DNA of 56,551 bases. Source: Candidatus Hydrogenedentota bacterium. GTDB taxonomy: Bacteria > Hydrogenedentota > Hydrogenedentia > Hydrogenedentales > JAGMZX01. The notes below the pieces were generated by a model. It did no database searches, had not been told where the DNA came from, and saw only the letters and a program-made list of their open reading frames with translations. Below are positions 45,442 through 53,845 of the stretch, piece after piece. Each line of letters begins with the position of its first letter. Position 1 is the stretch's first letter. The position numbers and the translations under genes are program-made. The stretch covers positions 1 to 56,551 of the forward strand of contig JAKQEQ010000063.1 of NCBI GenBank assembly GCA_029556545.1, in the 5' to 3' direction.

Positions 45442-46377
45442 TTACTCGGGCGCGGAAGGTAAGGATAGCGCCTCCTGGATGCTTGCGGCAAAGGCTTTCG
45501 GCGCGTCCGTGACGAACCACCGGATGCCCGCGTCGATGAGGCCGCGCAGGGACAGGGCATCGAAGATCATGGGCCGCGCCTGCAGCGCGACGCCCGCGGC
45601 GCGCGTCCGTTTCACCGCGTCGCGCAGGTACTCCGGTTCGAGGAAATACGTCACCGGCGAACCGCCGCGCCGCGGCCCGTACAAGTGCAACTGGAGTTGG
45701 CTGAGTCCCGCGAAGTCTTCCGCGGCCAGTTCCTCGAAGCGCGCCTTGATCGCCCGGGGCGTCCCGCTCAGCCACGTCATCGTGCGCGCGCCCTCGTAGA
45801 GCTGCTGTAAGCGCCGGCACGCCGCGACGTCGCCGTGAACGAAAATGACGCGCCGTTCCAAGCCCGCCTCGCGCAGGCATTCCGCGAGGCGCTGCTCATC
45901 CGCGTCCTTCAGGTCGAGATAGATTTCCCGATCGGGCTTGTCCCGCATCGCCGCGAGTACCTCGTCCAGCGTCGGGACCGGCGTACCCGCGTACTTCGCG
46001 TCGAACCAGCCGCCCGCGTCCCACCCGCGCAGCGTCTCGAACGGTATCTCGGCGATCCGCTTCGCGCGCCACGGCTCGGGCGCGTTCGTGGTGCGCGCGG
46101 GCGTCTCGTCGTGCATACAGACGACCACGCCGTCCCGCGTCGTGCGCAGATCTACCTCCGGCACCGCGCCGCGGATGCTCCAGGCGTGTTCAAGCGCGAC
46201 CAGCGTATTCTCCGGGACCTCTTCGAGGCCACCGCGATGCGCCTGGAAATACACCATGATGCACGCCTCCTCTCCTACCGCGAACACCTGCGCCAGACTC
46301 ACCAACACCCAGATCGCGACAATTCCCGCCGCCCACGACCAGTGGCACGGGCGTCTCGCCCGTGCTCCAAAGACCAT
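45442..46377 (-). CDS. exported glycerophosphodiester phosphodiesterase-family protein
   Basis: About 311 residues. After a hydrophobic signal/anchor (WSWAAGIVAIWVLVSLAQVFA, about 13-35) comes a GDPD TIM barrel with QAHRGG, ENTLVALEHAW, VPEVDLRTTRDGVVVCMHDETPARTTN and late blocks IYLDLKD and WFVTDAPKAF. The catalytic His pair and Glu/Asp metal ligands are present. It should split glycerophosphodiesters outside the cytoplasm. ATG 46377 is used; ATG 46431 is also in frame. The first 14 residues are encoded by a REP-family B palindrome (46342-46364), so the native N-terminus may have been replaced. It lies upstream of the haem operon on the same strand. Confidence 0.8.
   Translation of the reverse strand: MVFGARARRPCHWSWAAGIVAIWVLVSLAQVFAVGEEACIMVYFQAHRGGLEEVPENTLVALEHAWSIRGAVPEVDLRTTRDGVVVCMHDETPARTTNAPEPWRAKRIAEIPFETLRGWDAGGWFDAKYAGTPVPTLDEVLAAMRDKPDREIYLDLKDADEQRLAECLREAGLERRVIFVHGDVAACRRLQQLYEGARTMTWLSGTPRAIKARFEELAAEDFAGLSQLQLHLYGPRRGGSPVTYFLEPEYLRDAVKRTRAAGVALQARPMIFDALSLRGLIDAGIRWFVTDAPKAFAASIQEALSLPSAPE
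46342..46364. repeat. REP-family B element, copy 1
   Basis: A 23-base segment identical to 52156-52178. Its core CACGGGCGTCTCGCCCGTG is a perfect hairpin (8-bp arms, TCT loop). AAAGACCATG follows, similar to AAGACCATG at the other copy. It lies inside the 5' end of the GDPD gene. Confidence 0.8.
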
Positions 46378-46716: not shown

Positions 46717-49700
46717 ATGTCAGAGGAGAAACGTCGGGGCGGCGACCTGTTCATTGTTGACAACTCGGACGCCGACTGGAAGGTCGTGGATTACCTCTCC
46801 GAGTGGTCGGACCTTGCGCGGCAATTCGATATTGCCACCGGGAGTTTTGAAATCGGCGCGTTGCTCGCCTTGGACGGGCGCTGGCAGCAGTTGGAGACGC
46901 TGCGCATCCTCATGGGCGATGAAGTGACCAAACGCACGCGCCAAGCGCTGCTTGCGGGGGTCGAGCAGGCGAAAAGAGTCCTGGACGACTCGATCGAGAC
47001 GGAGAAGGAGAAGAACGACTTTCTCCGGGGCGTGCCGGGCGTTGTCGAGGCCCTGCAGGCCGGAAGAATCCTCTGCCGTGTCTACAACAAGAAGAAATTC
47101 CACGCTAAAGCGTTTATCACCCACGCCAAGCACGCCGTCATCGGTCCCGCTGCGCTTGTCGGCTCCAGCAACTTCACCGGTCCCGGCCTCTCCGAGAACG
47201 TCGAGCTGAACGTCCAGATACAGCGTGAAGTGTCCGATCTTCAGGAATGGTTCGACCGGCATTGGCGGGACGCCCACGACATTACCGAAGACATCCTTCG
47301 GGTCATTGAGCGCCACACGCGCGTGTACACGCCCTTCGAGGTCTACGCCAAGGCGCTCCAGGAGTACTTCCGCGGCCACGAGATGACCGAGACCGAATGG
47401 GAGCAAAGCAAGTCGCGCATGTACCCGGTCCTGGATCAGTATCAGAAGGAAGGCTATCACTCGCTGCTCAAGATCGCGCGGCAGCACAACGGCGCATTCC
47501 TCTGCGACGGCGTCGGCTTGGGCAAGACCTTCATCGGCATGATGCTGATCGAACGGCTTACGGTTCACGACAAGAAACAGGTCGCGCTCTTCGTTCCGAA
47601 GGCGGCGCGAAAACCCGTATGGGAATCGGCGCTCAAGAGATACCTCCCCAACATCTCGCGCCGCTTCGGCAGGCTCTACATCTACAATCATACGGACCTG
47701 CAGCGCGGGGGCGAATGGGTGGAGGAATTCCGGGAACTGAAAGAGACCGTGGACGCCATCATCATCGATGAGGCCCACCACTTCCGCAACCCGGGCATCC
47801 TGGGAAGAGGAACACGCAGACCCTCTCGATACCGCCAAATGTACGATCTCGCCGAGGGCAAGCAACTGTTCCTGCTCACCGCCACCCCCATCAACAACAG
47901 CCTGCGCGACCTTCAGCACATGATCGAACTTTTCTCACGCCGCGAAACCGACTACTTCAAGAACACGCTGGGTATTCATTCGCTGCCCGGCCACTTCCGC
48001 AAGATGGAAAAGCGCCTCGAAGAGGTTGTCGCCGCCAAGTCCGGCGCCGAGAGCCGCGCCGACATTGACACAAACCAGGCCGAGGCGGAAGATGTCCTGG
48101 CGCAGGACCAGTTGTTCACGGAACTTGTCGTTCAGCGCAGCCGCGCCTACGTCCGTGAGAGCCAGAAGCAGCATGACGGCGGCCAGGCGATCTTCCCCGA
48201 TCGCGAGCCGCCGCGCGTCGTGCAGTACTCGATCAAGAAGACCTATGGCCGATTGCTCAATGAACTCGAGCAGGCCTTCAGCAAGGATAAGCCGCTCTTC
48301 TCCCTTGCCATCTACTACCCCTTGGCGTATTACAAGGGCGAAGACGCGCAGATCGACCCGCTGCTCGAAAACCGGCAGAAACAGGTTGTCGGGTTGATCC
48401 GCACGCAGTTTCTCAAACGCTTCGAGAGTTCCGCCCACGCGTTCCAGATGTCCTGTCAAACCCTGCTCCTGAAGCTGCTGGCCTTTGCCGAAAAACATAG
48501 CGAAACGATGCATGAACGACACCGGCTCGAACGGTGGAGACGACAGCATGAGGAACTGCTCGGGTATATCCACGAAAGGCAGATGGAACTCCTTGGCGGC
48601 GAAGACGAAGACGAGGCCGACGCGGATATCATCACCGAGGAAATGCTCGATGACGTCGAGGAGTTGCCGCGCGATGAATACGACGTCAATGAGATTCTGC
48701 AGGAAACGATGCTGGACCTCGATCAGGTCGCCGAATTCCTCGATGAACTCCGGAAGTTCAAGCCCGCGCACGACGATAAGCTGAAAGCGCTCGTGAACCT
48801 GCTCAAGAAAGACCCCGTGCTCAAGCAGCACAAGGTGTTGATCTTTTCCGAATACATGGCCACCGCGCGCTACCTGAAAAAACAGCTCGAGGCCGCCGGG
48901 CTTGACGCTATCGACGAAGTAGACAGCGCCACCAAGCGCGACCGGGGCGAAATCCTGCGCCAGTTCTCCCCGTACTACAACGATTCGTCCGCCGCCGAAC
49001 TCGCCGACGAAGGACTGCCCGAAACGCGCATCCTCATCGCCACGGACGTGCTCTCCGAAGGGCTCAATCTCCAGGACGCCACCCGCCTCATCAATTACGA
49101 TCTCCACTGGAACCCGGTGCGGCTCATGCAGCGCATCGGCCGCGTCGACCGCCGCATGAACCCCGATATCGAGGCCCGCATCCTCGCCGAGCACCCGGAC
49201 CAGGCCGCGCTTCGCGGCAAGGTCGCTTTCTGGAACTTCCTGCCGCCCAACGAACTCGACGGTATCCTGCGGCTGTATTCGCTCGTGTCGCACAAGACCC
49301 TGCGCATCTCGAAGACCTTCGGTATCGAGGGCCGCCAATTGCTCACGCCCGAAGACGACTACGACGCACTCAAGGATTTCCTTCACAAGTACGAGGGCAC
49401 GGCGACCCCCGTCGAAGTCCTGCACAACGAATACCAACAACTCTTGAAGGACCATCCCGGCCTCGAAGATCGCCTGAACGCGCTACCCGGCAAGGTCTTC
49501 TCCGGAAAGGCGCACCCGAGTCCCGGTGCCAAGGCCGTTTTCTTCTGCTTCGCCATTCCCGCGCTCGATATGACCCGAAAAGCCGAGTCCGGCGGCGAAG
49601 ACGTCTGGACGGAGGAGGCGGGTACTACCCGCTGGCTCCTGTACGACCTCGAATCCGAGCGCATCCTCGAAGAACCCGGCGAAATCGCCCAATTCATCCG

Positions 49701-49863
49701 CAGCACGCCCGAAACGCCCCGGCGGCGCGCCATTCCCGATGAAACCCTCGCGGACATCCGCGCCAAAATGGAAAAACACGTCAAGAACACGTACCTGAAA
49801 GAGCGTCAGGCGCCCGTAGGCGTCAAGGCAACGATAAAAGCCTGGATGGAACTATGTTCGTAG
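46717..49863 (+). CDS. PLD-nuclease/SF2 helicase fusion (restriction or defence helicase)
   Basis: 1048 residues. The N-terminal 190 residues form a phospholipase-D-like nuclease half domain: KFHAKAFIT near 128-136 and VGSSNFTGPGL near 149-159 give the H-K and G-S-N signature, though the usual Asp is not obvious. The SNF2/DEAD-like helicase follows with Walker A GVGLGKT near 266-272, DEAH near 350 (IIIDEAHHF), motif III LLTATPINNSL, and a C-terminal RecA domain near 720-830 (KVLIFSEYMATARYL, ILIATDVLSEGLNLQ, QRIGRVDRR). It should translocate on DNA and may cut it. An Eco57I-like methylase gene starts 92 bases after it. The stop codon lies inside a REP element starting at 49856, so the last two codons are repeat-derived. 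Confidence 0.85.
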   Translation: MSEEKRRGGDLFIVDNSDADWKVVDYLSEWSDLARQFDIATGSFEIGALLALDGRWQQLETLRILMGDEVTKRTRQALLAGVEQAKRVLDDSIETEKEKNDFLRGVPGVVEALQAGRILCRVYNKKKFHAKAFITHAKHAVIGPAALVGSSNFTGPGLSENVELNVQIQREVSDLQEWFDRHWRDAHDITEDILRVIERHTRVYTPFEVYAKALQEYFRGHEMTETEWEQSKSRMYPVLDQYQKEGYHSLLKIARQHNGAFLCDGVGLGKTFIGMMLIERLTVHDKKQVALFVPKAARKPVWESALKRYLPNISRRFGRLYIYNHTDLQRGGEWVEEFRELKETVDAIIIDEAHHFRNPGILGRGTRRPSRYRQMYDLAEGKQLFLLTATPINNSLRDLQHMIELFSRRETDYFKNTLGIHSLPGHFRKMEKRLEEVVAAKSGAESRADIDTNQAEAEDVLAQDQLFTELVVQRSRAYVRESQKQHDGGQAIFPDREPPRVVQYSIKKTYGRLLNELEQAFSKDKPLFSLAIYYPLAYYKGEDAQIDPLLENRQKQVVGLIRTQFLKRFESSAHAFQMSCQTLLLKLLAFAEKHSETMHERHRLERWRRQHEELLGYIHERQMELLGGEDEDEADADIITEEMLDDVEELPRDEYDVNEILQETMLDLDQVAEFLDELRKFKPAHDDKLKALVNLLKKDPVLKQHKVLIFSEYMATARYLKKQLEAAGLDAIDEVDSATKRDRGEILRQFSPYYNDSSAAELADEGLPETRILIATDVLSEGLNLQDATRLINYDLHWNPVRLMQRIGRVDRRMNPDIEARILAEHPDQAALRGKVAFWNFLPPNELDGILRLYSLVSHKTLRISKTFGIEGRQLLTPEDDYDALKDFLHKYEGTATPVEVLHNEYQQLLKDHPGLEDRLNALPGKVFSGKAHPSPGAKAVFFCFAIPALDMTRKAESGGEDVWTEEAGTTRWLLYDLESERILEEPGEIAQFIRSTPETPRRRAIPDETLADIRAKMEKHVKNTYLKERQAPVGVKATIKAWMELCS

Positions 49864-49935
49864 TACACGCTTTAGCATGTCTTCTTTGTAGTACACGCTT
49901 CAGCGTGTCTTGAAGACAACCTAAAGGTTGTCCCA
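49856..49935. repeat. REP-family A elements between helicase and methylase
   Basis: Several palindromic arms of the GTTCGTAGTACACGC type: GTAGTACACGCTTTAGCATG, GTAGTACACGCTTCAGCGTG and GACAACCTAAAGGTTGTC. The same words occur at 19787-19844, 53081-53177 and 53823-53845. It covers the helicase stop codon and ends just before the methylase Shine-Dalgarno sequence (GGGAGGAA at about 49937). Confidence 0.8.
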
Positions 49936-49955
49936 CAGGGAGGAAATCAACGCCG

Positions 49956-52900
49956 ATGCCCGACCCGCGACGCATTGAAAACGCCCTGCGCCAGGTACGC
50001 GACCCGCAATCGTTCATTCAGCACCTCCTAATCGACGCCTTGGGCTGGCCCGTCGAGAAATCCGCCGTCGAGGTCGAGGATATCGGCTACGCATGGACCG
50101 CGGGCGAACTGCGCGCCGAGGGTTTCGAGAAGAAGCTCGTGGACGGCGCGATCCATCAGATCGGCCCGTTCCGCGGGAACCCGTGGGGCATCTTCCTTCT
50201 CGAATTTCAACGGCCCGACGTGTTCACCACGGGCCGCGGCATGACCGGCGTGGTCCGCAAGGTGCTCCGGGGGCTTGTCGAGAAGAAACGCGCCGTGCGC
50301 AACCCTAAACTGGCCGCGTTTCGACGGGAAACGCTCCTCTTCATCTGCACACACGGCTACACGCATTACCGCTTTGCCTGCTTCAAAGCGCCCCTCGACG
50401 GCGCGCGCACCGCGCCGCTCGCCGCGTTCGGCTGGGGACCGGGCGACGCCGTGCGCACCGTGTGCGAATACAATCTCAGCGCGCTTGAGTGGCCCGATAG
50501 GCCGCTGCGGGACGCCCACGGGTGGATTAGCGCCTGGGGCGCCGCGTTCGACGTCGAAAAGGTCACAAAACGCTTCTACGAGGACTATCGCGCCATTTTC
50601 GAACGCGCGGAATCACGCATCAAGGCCCATACGCCCCTGCGCGACAACGATCTGCGTCTCTTCACCCAAAGCCTGTTCAACCGGATCATGTTCCTGCGGT
50701 TTATCGAGCGCAAGGGGTGGCTTGCGTTCCCCGGCCAGACCGGGCGCAACTACCTCGCCGCGCTTATGGACGCCGGGCCGATGCGCGGGAAATCGTTCTA
50801 CCGCGCCCGGCTGCGCCCGCTCTTCTTCGAGGGCATGGCCGTCGAGGGCAGCCAATCAAGCGACGCCTACGGGCGCGTGCCGTTCCTCAACGGCGGCCTC
50901 TTCGAGGAGGGCCCCCTCGATAAGCGGGTAACCGACCTGCCGGATGAAATCTTCGCGCCTATCATCGGCGCGACCGGCCTCTTCTACCGCTACAACTTCA
51001 CCGTCGAGGAATCGACCCCGCTCGATATCGAGGTCGCCGTCGACCCCGAAATGCTCGGCAAGGTCTTCGAGGAACTTGTCACGGGCCGTCACGAGTCCGG
51101 CTCGTATTACACGCCCCGCCCCGTCGTCTCTTTCATGTGCCGCGAGGCGCTCAAGGGCTATCTCCGAACCAGGACGGACGCCTCCGAGGTCATCGTCGCC
51201 CGATTGGTGGACCAACACGACCCCTCGGGCCTCTCCGAAGGCCGGGCCCATCAAGTCACAACCGCCCTGGACACCGTCAAGGCCGTCGATCCCGCTTGCG
51301 GCTCCGGCGCGTACCTCCTCGGCCTCATGCACGAACTCATCGCCATCCGCCGCGCACTCCGGAGCGAGCGACTCGTTGCAGACCCGCAATTCCTATACGA
51401 CCTAAAGCTGCATATCATCAGCCGCAACCTCTACGGCGTCGATCTGGACCCGTTCGCAACCAGCATCGCACGCCTCCGCTTGTGGCTCTCGCTTATCATC
51501 GAGGCGGATCAGCCGCTGCCACTCCCGAATCTGGATTTCAAGATCGAGCAGGGCGACAGCATTCTCAGCCCCGATCCCAGCGGCGGCGCACAGCCCGACT
51601 TGCACCGCCACGTCACCATCGAGACATTCGACAATCTGAAACGGCAATACCTCCGCGAGAAGGACCGCCGGAGAAAACTGGAAATCCAACGCGAGATCGC
51701 CGAAGCCCGCCGCGCAATCCTCGAATATGGAAGTCAATGGGCGCGCCGCGAGCATAGGACGCCGGAAGGCACGCTGGACTGGCGCATCGAGTTCGCCGAA
51801 GTCTGGAACGAGGCCGAAGGCTTCGATATTGTCCTGGCCAACCCGCCCTACGTCCGGCAGGAATTGATCCGCAACCTGAAAGAACAACTCAAGGCGGTTT
51901 ACAGGGACCTCTACGTCGGCACCGCGGACCTTTATTGTTACTTCTACCTGCGCGCCCTGCAACTGCTGCGCCCCGGCGGCATGCTGGTCTTCATTTCCTC
52001 AAACAAGTGGTTCCGCGCCAACTACGGGAAGACGCTCCGACAACATGTCGCCGAAACCTGCCATGTCGAGTCGATCACGGACTTCGGCGATCTGCCCGTC
52101 TTCGAGGCAACCGCCTATCCCATGATCTTCGTAGCGCAAAAGCGTGGCACACCGCGTGGCACGGGCGTCTCGCCCGTGATTCAAGACCATGAGCAAGATG
52201 CGCATGCCACGGTGTTTACCCAAGTCGAATCCCTTGAACCGCCCTATCCCGATGTTCGCGCCCTCATCCACCGGGATGGACAGCGCCTCCCGGCGTCCGC
52301 CATATCGGGCCCCACCTGGACCCTTGCCGCAGCCGCCGCTGCCGACCGGCTCCGTAAAATGGAACAGGCCGGCATCCCTCTTGGCGAATACGTCAACGGA
52401 CAGATTCATTACGGCATCAAGACCGGCTTCAATAAGGCGTTTGTTATCGACGGCGAAAAGCGCGCGGAACTGACTGCGCAAGACCGGAAGAGCGCGGAAA
52501 TCGTCAAGCCCCTCGCCATGGGCAAGGACATCCGCAAGTGGGCCATCGACCGGAAAGACCGCTGGCTCATCGTCACCAAAATCGGCGTGGACATCAAGCG
52601 CTATCCCGCCGTCTTCAGGCATCTCAAACAATGGCAACCCGAACTCGAACGCCGCTACGACAAAGGCCGCCACTGGTGGGAACTGAGAGCCTGCGATTAC
52701 TACGATGAATTTGAGAAGCCGAAGATCGTATTTCCTGATATATCGAAAGAGGCAAGATTTGCCCTGTGCGAAGGACCGATGTTTCTTGGCAACACAGGCT
52801 ATATCATCCCCGTTTCAGACCCATTCCTCGTTGGCGTCTTGAACAGCGACTCCGTAACCGCATACTACAGCGAAATCAGTTCGCAGGTTCGCGGTGACTA

Positions 52901-53072
52901 CCTGCGCTTTATCTATCAATACGTCTCCCAGATTCCCATTCCGGAGGCATCGTCGGCGGAGCGACGTGCGATTGAACGTCTTGTTCGCAAATGCATCGAC
53001 GCGGGCGGAGTGGACTGTGGCGAGTGGGAGCGGGAGATCAACGAGCGCGTCGCGGCGCTGTATGGATTATGA
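49956..53072 (+). CDS. Eco57I-like adenine-specific DNA methyltransferase (type IIG/BREX-like)
   Basis: 1038 residues. An N-terminal domain of about 200 residues (LVDGAIHQIG, then GIFLLEFQRPDVF) has a D...E-x-Q pattern reminiscent of a PD-(D/E)xK nuclease fold, uncertain. YYTPRPVVSF near 385 introduces the N6-adenine methylase core with motif I DPACGSGAYLLGLMHEL near 445, YGVDLDPFATSIARLRLW and catalytic motif IV LANPPYVRQE near 628. The C-terminal third is a target-recognition region (ITDFGDLPVFEATAYPMIFVA, then TGYIIP and YQYVSQIPIP). An in-frame insertion at about residues 730-753 is encoded by a REP-family B palindrome. It pairs with the PLD-helicase upstream to form a probable restriction module. 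Confidence 0.87.
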   Translation: MPDPRRIENALRQVRDPQSFIQHLLIDALGWPVEKSAVEVEDIGYAWTAGELRAEGFEKKLVDGAIHQIGPFRGNPWGIFLLEFQRPDVFTTGRGMTGVVRKVLRGLVEKKRAVRNPKLAAFRRETLLFICTHGYTHYRFACFKAPLDGARTAPLAAFGWGPGDAVRTVCEYNLSALEWPDRPLRDAHGWISAWGAAFDVEKVTKRFYEDYRAIFERAESRIKAHTPLRDNDLRLFTQSLFNRIMFLRFIERKGWLAFPGQTGRNYLAALMDAGPMRGKSFYRARLRPLFFEGMAVEGSQSSDAYGRVPFLNGGLFEEGPLDKRVTDLPDEIFAPIIGATGLFYRYNFTVEESTPLDIEVAVDPEMLGKVFEELVTGRHESGSYYTPRPVVSFMCREALKGYLRTRTDASEVIVARLVDQHDPSGLSEGRAHQVTTALDTVKAVDPACGSGAYLLGLMHELIAIRRALRSERLVADPQFLYDLKLHIISRNLYGVDLDPFATSIARLRLWLSLIIEADQPLPLPNLDFKIEQGDSILSPDPSGGAQPDLHRHVTIETFDNLKRQYLREKDRRRKLEIQREIAEARRAILEYGSQWARREHRTPEGTLDWRIEFAEVWNEAEGFDIVLANPPYVRQELIRNLKEQLKAVYRDLYVGTADLYCYFYLRALQLLRPGGMLVFISSNKWFRANYGKTLRQHVAETCHVESITDFGDLPVFEATAYPMIFVAQKRGTPRGTGVSPVIQDHEQDAHATVFTQVESLEPPYPDVRALIHRDGQRLPASAISGPTWTLAAAAAADRLRKMEQAGIPLGEYVNGQIHYGIKTGFNKAFVIDGEKRAELTAQDRKSAEIVKPLAMGKDIRKWAIDRKDRWLIVTKIGVDIKRYPAVFRHLKQWQPELERRYDKGRHWWELRACDYYDEFEKPKIVFPDISKEARFALCEGPMFLGNTGYIIPVSDPFLVGVLNSDSVTAYYSEISSQVRGDYLRFIYQYVSQIPIPEASSAERRAIERLVRKCIDAGGVDCGEWEREINERVAALYGL
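52143..52211. repeat. REP-family B element inside the methylase gene
   Basis: Contains the same 23-base palindrome as 46342-46364 at 52156-52178, with outer arms GTGGCAC at 52145 and TGCCACG near 52206. It is read in frame as a peptide containing RGTGVSPVIQDHEQDAHAT. This peptide is familiar to me from proteins of planctomycete-like genomes, where REP elements are read through. It falls between the MTase core and the target-recognition domain. Confidence 0.8.
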
Positions 53073-53080
53073 TATTCTGT

Positions 53081-53177
53081 TTGTAGTGCAAAGTTCGTAG
53101 TGCAACCTTTAGGTTGTCTTAAGCACACGCTGAAGCGTGTACTACAAACATCACGCTGAAGCGTGCACTACAAACAG
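53081..53177. repeat. REP-family A cluster upstream of the transposase
   Basis: Contains GTTTGTAGTGCA, GTTCGTAGTGCAACC-TTTA-GGTTGTC, ACACGCTGAAGCGTGTACTAC and CACGCTGAAGCGTGCACTAC. Perfect arms CACGC/GCGTG and CAACC/GGTTG form hairpins. It starts 9 bases after the methylase stop and runs to about 10 bases before the transposase start. Confidence 0.85.
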
Positions 53178-53187
53178 GGGCTCCTTC

Positions 53188-53787
53188 ATGTACGAGTGGC
53201 GCAAGATGACGCCGAAGGAACGCGCGGACGCGCTGGCGCACCGCCGCGCGAACCGTTGGCCCTGGCATAGTCCGCCGCATGTGAATCTCGGGCCGGGCGC
53301 GTACCTGATCTCCGCGTCGTGCTTCGAACATCGCGCGATTATCGGCGAATCCCCCGAACGGATGGCGATATTCGAGGATGCCTTGTGCGAGATGCTGTAT
53401 CAGCACGCCCGGGCCGTGTACGCATGGTGCGTATTGCCGAACCATTATCATGCGCTGGTGGAAACCGCCGGCGTGGAGGACGTTGCGTGGCAACTTGGAA
53501 GACTGCACGGGCGATGCTCCCGGTTTTGGAATCTGGAAGAAGGATGCGTGGGCAGAAAGACCTGGTTCAATTGTACGAACCGGGCCATGCGGGACGATCG
53601 TCATTTCTGGGCGACAATGAACTACGTACAGCACAATGCGGTGAAGCACGGATACGTGGATCGCTGGGAAGAGTGGCCGTATTCAAGCGCCCGCGGCTTC
53701 CTGCAGGAGGTGGGGCGAGACGAAGCACTTCGCCTTTGGCGCGAATACCCGATCCTCGACTATGGGAAAGGTTGGGACGAGAACTGA
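53188..53787 (+). CDS. REP-associated tyrosine transposase (RAYT, Y1/IS200-like)
   Basis: 199 residues. The HUH motif appears as VLPNHYHALVE near 83-93. The probable nucleophilic tyrosine lies in MNYVQHNAVKHGY near 146-158. A basic N-terminal segment (RRANRWPWHSPPHV) and FNCTNRAMRDDRHFW complete the TnpA-REP pattern. RAYTs are single-copy, IS200-related enzymes that bind, nick and mobilise REP hairpins rather than moving as insertion sequences. REP-family A elements flank it on both sides, which strongly supports the pairing. ATG 53188 is used; an upstream ATG at 53137 lies in the REP cluster. Confidence 0.88.
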   Translation: MYEWRKMTPKERADALAHRRANRWPWHSPPHVNLGPGAYLISASCFEHRAIIGESPERMAIFEDALCEMLYQHARAVYAWCVLPNHYHALVETAGVEDVAWQLGRLHGRCSRFWNLEEGCVGRKTWFNCTNRAMRDDRHFWATMNYVQHNAVKHGYVDRWEEWPYSSARGFLQEVGRDEALRLWREYPILDYGKGWDEN

Positions 53788-53822
53788 GCGCACGATGCTG
53801 TGCATAGTGCGTGATGAAGACA

Positions 53823-53845
53823 CGCTGAAGCGTGTACTACAAACC
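53823..53845. repeat. REP-family A unit downstream of the transposase
   Basis: ACGCTGAAGCGTGTACTAC followed by AAAC matches the arms of the cluster at 53081-53177. It lies between the transposase stop and the leftward penicillin-acylase-family gene. Confidence 0.75.

Follow-up and report, generated by a model that had tools for sequence, protein, structure and literature searches.

A Widespread Gene Pair for a PLD-Helicase and an N6-Adenine Methylase, Apparently an Unnamed Two-Subunit Variant of ATP-Dependent Restriction-Modification

Overview of the System

Two adjacent genes were analyzed in a 56,551-nucleotide stretch of DNA (herein referred to as the window; contig JAKQEQ010000063.1, assembly GCA_029556545.1) from Candidatus Hydrogenedentota bacterium. 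The first encodes a phospholipase D (PLD) nuclease fused to a helicase motor, and the second encodes an N6-adenine methylase; the proteins are herein referred to as H and M, respectively. H and M probably form a single ATP-dependent restriction-modification enzyme of two subunits, resembling a Type ISP enzyme divided into two chains and equipped with a PLD cutter, and apparently represent a widespread, unnamed two-subunit variant of such systems. As judged from the sequences, the catalytic sites are intact, the pairing of the two genes is nearly universal, the M proteins share an N-terminal domain, and the specificity parts are exchanged while H remains constant. We infer physical docking, translocation, cleavage, an N6-methyladenine motif, and phage defense by H and M. 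A preliminary description of this DNA had proposed a compact split ISP-like restriction system with a PLD cutter and, additionally, a second nuclease at the N-terminus of the methylase. The first part of this interpretation is supported here, while the second nuclease is not.

The PLD-Helicase

The gene for H (46717..49863, forward strand) starts with ATG and encodes 1048 amino acids; the gene for M (49956..53072, forward strand) also starts with ATG and encodes 1038 amino acids. Both open reading frames (ORFs), their lengths, and the spacing of 92 nt between them agree with the preliminary description. The ORF itself, Pfam profiles, an alignment, and an AlphaFold model identify H as the fusion of a PLD nuclease with a motor of the SNF2/RapA type from helicase superfamily 2 (SF2). 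In the Pfam profile search, the PLDc_2 (E-value 4e-8), ResIII/SNF2, and Helicase_C domains were found, and no SRA-type domain was found in H. By alignment, the PLD active site consists of the HxK motif (H129 and K131), the GSSN motif (residues 149-152), and E163 (47098..47214, forward strand). The motor motifs GVGLGKT, DEAHH, TATP, and QRIGRVDR were located by sequence and alignment at 47509..49152 on the same strand. Thus, a PLD signature and a complete SF2 helicase are indeed joined in one protein, as previously described.

Relatives of H, distant ones included, are encoded by at least 557 stretches found in a genome scan. The best 80 of these at least 557 stretches are 53-73% identical to H over nearly the full length. 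Among these 80 relatives, 16 named NCBI phyla are represented, along with one unassigned record, and the closest named relative, 73% identical, is from Candidatus Hydrogenedentota bacterium. Cultured hosts of the family include Rhodoferax antarcticus (L049) and Pseudomonas farris (L077). All 81 aligned sequences retain the HxK and GSSN motifs of the PLD domain and the catalytic letters of the SF2 motifs. Moreover, H129, K131, N152, E163, and the SF2 catalytic letters are still invariant after the addition of three helicases only 25-27% identical to H. With the H family profile, scores of at least 1500 bits correspond to full-length members and lower scores to fragments of true members or to other helicases, the latter reaching at most 366 bits.

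Since each H chain has only one HxK motif, two PLD domains would have to pair into one active site, as in BfiI and SauUSI (PMC7913695). The AlphaFold model of H is of moderate confidence (pLDDT 80.5, pTM 0.64), and its fold matches include RapA, SNF2 remodellers, SauUSI, and ZorD. The nearest defense model for H is PADLOC C3a139 "HKD+Snf2" (187 bits). Assignment of H to the NCBI "phospholipase D-like anti-phage protein" was rejected (137 bits against a cut-off of 1100).

The Methylase and Its N-Terminal Domain

ORF and profile data identify M as an N6-adenine methylase of the Eco57I/TaqI type with a target-recognition domain. Pfam matches to Eco57I (E-value 1e-40) and TaqI_C, together with the motifs DPACGSGAY (residues 445-453) and NPPY (residues 629-632; 51288..51857, forward strand, by sequence and profiles), confirm the methylase that had been described here. 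The TaqI_C-type target-recognition domain covers residues 852-995 (52509..52940, forward strand, by Pfam profile). In its methylase and recognition parts, M is similar to BseCI and to Type IIG enzymes, the latter providing the closest models.

The first ~205 residues of M (49956..50570, forward strand) form a domain that, according to the alignment, is conserved and specific to the partners of H. Eight of its positions, namely W31, W77, L104, F129, W160, W194, A197, and F198, are invariant in 61 sequences. This domain of ~200 residues has no Pfam family and no sequence match in PDB. Its structure model, the building of which the preliminary description had suggested, is confident (pLDDT 89) and has no fold match in PDB, to a nuclease or otherwise; the top candidate has an E-value of 0.02, a probability of 0.13, and a TM-score of 0.16. 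The domain would serve as a dock that holds H for interchangeable specificity subunits.

The second nuclease had been suggested for this region on the basis of a D...E-x-Q pattern. The pattern is literally present, with E-x-Q in LLEFQ (residues 81-85), but it is not conserved: relatives have FIDFE, FISFE, WLDFE, or FIRFE, so that the position of E is occupied by E, D, S, or R, and Q is not retained. Because E-x-Q is not conserved and no nuclease was found in Pfam or PDB searches, this proposal is not supported. It is also very improbable that the domain represents a PD-(D/E)XK nuclease in degenerate or cryptic form and that the system has, or had, two nucleases. The predicted succession of strands and helices bears a loose resemblance to the alpha-beta-beta-beta-alpha-beta core, as a dead relic might, and E83-F-Q85 lies on a strand; these points are opposed by the variability of E83 and Q85 and by the lack of any fold match better than the candidate mentioned above.

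Pairing of H and M

Downstream of H, at least 3 kb of sequence are available in 59 loci, and 56 of these carry a methylase with the NPPY motif. By profile search, the M-type N-terminal domain was found on the same strand within 4 kb of H in 68 of the 69 loci with at least 1.5 kb, with a median gap of 38 nt between H and the domain-bearing gene. This survey of adjacency across many phyla agrees with the proposal of one compact, conserved system, in which the nuclease is carried by the helicase and the methylase is separate. Lack of conservation of the pair, or absence of the PLD residues in homologs, would have spoken against this proposal; the pair is conserved, and the PLD residues are present in each of the 81 sequences. 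As both genes are conserved and adjacent in many phyla, a chance association is excluded.

The profile for the M N-terminus was built from most of the 69 loci, and therefore separate tests of co-occurrence carry more weight. Close relatives of H (67-100% identical) were found in 5 of the 68 Hydrogenedentota genomes. The M N-terminal domain was found in the same five genomes and in one more (G032); in the latter, the contig ends 73 bp from the start of M, and H would fall outside the assembly. Among 40 further genomes, selected for holding H, the domain was found in 39, with one copy in each, including one copy split over two contigs. In the fortieth genome (locus L043), which lacks the domain, only 33 bp separate H from the locus end.

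These data bear on the explanation that H and M are unrelated neighbors, M being a complete Type IIG enzyme and H a SauUSI-like modification-dependent nuclease. Type IIG models are indeed the closest ones for M, and SauUSI shares the layout of PLD domain and motor. Nevertheless, this explanation is strongly disfavored and extremely improbable, considering the adjacency in the surveyed loci, the occurrence of the M domain only together with H and in one copy per genome, and the results for the domains, with no nuclease found in M and no SRA-type domain found in H.

No constant third gene was found beside H in its relatives. The genes located between H and M vary and appear to include PIN, HigBA-type, AAA, or DUF3800 inserts, as judged by sequence reading rather than by profiles. 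No close relatives of H were found among the plasmid or phage records searched; four IMG/VR contigs carry one.

Distant PLD-helicases, 25-30% identical to H, were examined in the same phylum. They lack the shared domain, and some of them are located beside methylases in the order M-H; for these reasons they were set apart from the H family as a separate lineage. In three loci (L117, L118, and L119), a methylase of 1170-1210 amino acids with a different N-terminus of ~310 residues is followed by a PLD-SNF2 helicase 25-30% identical to H. Another distant PLD-SNF2 helicase is adjoined by a MzaA-like protein (L121:7966-9366, 130 bits).

Exchange of Methylase Classes

By BLAST, the bodies of the 61 partner methylases form two clusters, with 46 and 15 members, the smaller one including M from the window. 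The Type_ISP_C domain (PF18135) was found in all five scanned members of the larger cluster, with E-values of 3e-50 or better; the placement of 46 of the 61 partners of H in this ISP-like cluster lends independent support to the "split ISP-like" character proposed in the preliminary description. Scanned members of the smaller cluster have TaqI_C or DUF7008, and some partners of H are PglX-like. One of the partner methylases (L030:12940-17700) reaches 441 bits with the NCBI BREX-2 PglX equivalog, for which the cut-off is 400, and is a likely source of false annotation as BREX (bacteriophage exclusion).

H is conserved while the methylase classes change. On the H tree, 13 changes of methylase class are needed in comparison with a mean of 14.3 for shuffled labels, and therefore the methylase class hardly tracks H. 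For the ISP label, 10 class changes are forced by well-supported branches of this tree. The loci L031 and L065 encode H proteins with 97% identity and methylases of different classes. Their M proteins are 73% identical in alignment positions 1-100 and 26% identical in the following 100, suggesting, for this one pair, recombination inside the shared N-terminal domain. Six close pairs, each of one methylase class, are mostly 70-95% identical in the N-terminal domain and the methylase but only 22-57% in the recognition region. Such fast divergence of the recognition region is the pattern of specificity switching.

The same divergence is relevant to another explanation, according to which H is an abortive or collateral nuclease that destroys host and phage DNA upon infection or loss of methylation, with M as its antitoxin. 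This scheme would be compatible with a nuclease accompanied by a methylase, and other HKD-helicase systems have been proposed to act by suicide (PMC10853773). However, the recognition part of M diverges fastest, which points to site-specific DNA recognition, and there is no sign of a phage sensor, so we consider an abortive function unlikely.

Equally unlikely is a mechanism similar to those of BREX or DISARM (defense island system associated with restriction-modification), in which M would mark self and H would block or remodel phage DNA with little or no cutting, further components possibly being encoded elsewhere. Among the named defense families, the H motor has its top scores with DrmD, BrxH, and related helicases, and this similarity, along with the PglX-like partners, is compatible with such a mechanism. 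On the other hand, no matches to PglZ of BREX (PF08665) or to DUF499 (PF04465) were found in the genome, and its only match to MZB (DUF1998-type) is on contig C33, away from the module. The lack of a constant third gene beside H and the preservation of the PLD site in every sequence also speak against this mechanism.

Proposed Mechanism

For the two-subunit enzyme, the following order of events is proposed. The C-terminal recognition domain of M would read a specific, probably asymmetric, DNA sequence, and M would methylate adenine at N6 in this sequence, thus marking self. At an unmethylated site, the N-terminal domain of M would hold H on the DNA, and H would use ATP to travel along the duplex. 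The paired PLD domains of H would then cleave the DNA, probably upon collision or stalling of two complexes; this collision or stalling step is taken over from Type ISP enzymes (PMC4666363) and SauUSI (PMC7913695).

Some observations weigh against such an enzyme. The H motor groups with the RapA, DrmD, and SNF2 motors and not with the Type ISP motor, and therefore the step of translocation and collision is borrowed from other systems and could differ here. The M N-terminal domain is without a recognized fold, and the proposed docking is deduced from genetic linkage. Finally, the module in the window is located among housekeeping genes and not in a defense island.

A broader proposal, with a chance slightly short of even, is that these systems form a widespread, unnamed restriction-modification class in which one PLD-SNF2 motor-nuclease is the universal effector for at least three interchangeable kinds of methylase/specificity subunits (Type ISP-like, TaqI/Eco57I-like, and PglX-like), connected through one docking domain of a new fold. 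Replacement of the second gene would give hosts a new specificity, and palindromes may delimit the exchanged cassette. If so, a restriction class of many bacterial phyla has been read piecemeal, with H taken for a generic helicase, M for a Type IIG-like enzyme, and one partner even passing the BREX-2 PglX cut-off. In such a modular design, M would determine what is cut and H how it is cut, and one shared domain would link the two. The coupling of recognition, motor, and nuclease, so far studied mainly in single-chain Type ISP enzymes, would become directly testable.

Genomic Context and Palindromic Elements

The window is on contig C116 of a genome assembled in 195 contigs (6.1 Mb). The module adjoins a GDPD gene and, after M, a RAYT-like ORF (53137-53787) containing the motif LPNHYHAL. 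M is flanked by palindromes similar to repetitive extragenic palindromic (REP) elements, ACACGCTTCAGCGTGT and GACAACCTAAAGGTTGTC, in opposite orientations. A palindrome search located such elements between H and M (49865..49932) and directly past M (53101..53166), and a further one lies downstream of M at 53820-53835. Only 16 copies of ACACGCTTCAGCGTGT (at most one mismatch) were found in the genome, three of them in this region. Additionally, the linker between the methylase and recognition domains of M contains an in-frame REP-like insert (residues 731-752; 52146..52211, forward strand), identified by its sequence and genome copies. Its palindrome, GGCACGGGCGTCTCGCCCGTG, has 61 copies in the genome (at most one mismatch) and none in a reversed control; the second copy in the window is at 46344. 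In the nearest relative (L029:12120-16331), the corresponding linker carries an in-frame insertion of a Y1 (RAYT-like) transposase domain. Speculatively, bounding by REP-like elements could aid exchange of the M cassette.

Contig C137 of the same genome encodes two DrmD-like SNF2 helicases with 698 and 389 bits (L122:7786-10608 and L123:6967-10701), and the second of them adjoins a TmtA-like protein. These helicases, as well as the MZB match on contig C33, possibly belong to partial or unnamed defense loci.

Comparison With Known Systems

The module encodes together a methylase, a recognition domain, an SF2 motor, and a nuclease, all with intact motifs, as is general for ATP-dependent restriction-modification. 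Nevertheless, the module does not fit DISARM, BREX, Hma/BR, ARMADA, Type ISP, Type IIG, or SauUSI, since for each of them one or more of the tested hallmarks are missing (PMC12839542, PMC12458937, PMC5737866), and the first four of these were rejected because of absent components.

As in DISARM, a SNF2-like helicase, an adenine methylase, and a PLD protein are all present (PMC9142583). With the DrmD equivalog, H reaches 131 bits, well below the cut-off of 610. In DISARM, the PLD protein is the separate DrmC, and DrmA and DrmB are required. Neither DrmA nor DrmB, nor any other component of DISARM, BREX, or Type I systems, was found among the larger window proteins selected for scanning; to this extent, the earlier distinction from DISARM and BREX is retained. 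Hma, or the DUF499-centered Type-2 BR systems, share a fusion of HKD (PLD) and Snf2 helicase as well as an N6-methylase (PMC12839542) but have a DUF499 ATPase, usually with DUF3780. As combinations of HKD-helicase and N6-methylase are known in DUF499 systems (PMC12839542, PMC7641849), the parts of the module are not new. ARMADA is defined by the YprA helicase, which is absent from the operon analyzed here, and the consulted passages describe no PLD domain on its RapA-like helicase.

In SauUSI, a Type IV enzyme, a PLD nuclease likewise precedes an SF2 ATPase in the same chain, and H matches the SauUSI fold (7clg, E-value 1e-10). For this PLD-SF2 restriction enzyme, PLD dimers, translocation, and ATP-driven cutting are described (PMC7913695). 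However, SauUSI is a single SRA-domain protein, acts on modified DNA (PMC7913695, PMC12707154), and has no methylase, whereas H is without an SRA match and has an adjacent methylase. NgoAVII and CglI are likewise ATP-dependent restriction enzymes with a PLD nuclease and an SF2 ATPase, but one of their subunits combines PLD with a B3 recognition domain and the other combines the ATPase with Z1 and C domains (PMC5737866). Type IIG (BseCI-like) enzymes resemble M in the methylase and recognition parts. Their nuclease is in the methylase chain, while cutting is here assigned to H.

A two-gene design with a shared N-terminal domain and exchangeable methylases was not found described in the consulted PubMed Central literature, although REBASE or DefenseFinder may hold a name for it. 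Type ISP enzymes, such as LlaGI and LlaBIII, likewise combine a nuclease, an SF2 motor, a methylase, and a recognition domain, and their C-terminal specificity domain recurs in the commonest partners of H. Type ISP enzymes, however, are single chains with an Mrr-family nuclease of the PD-(D/E)XK type (PMC4666363). In the module analyzed here, the activities are divided between two ORFs, which are separate in the relatives too, the nuclease is of the PLD type, the motor is SNF2/RapA-like, and M from the window has TaqI_C in place of the Type ISP specificity domain. Thus, the pair of H and M probably works like a split ISP enzyme, yet it is not a member of Type ISP.

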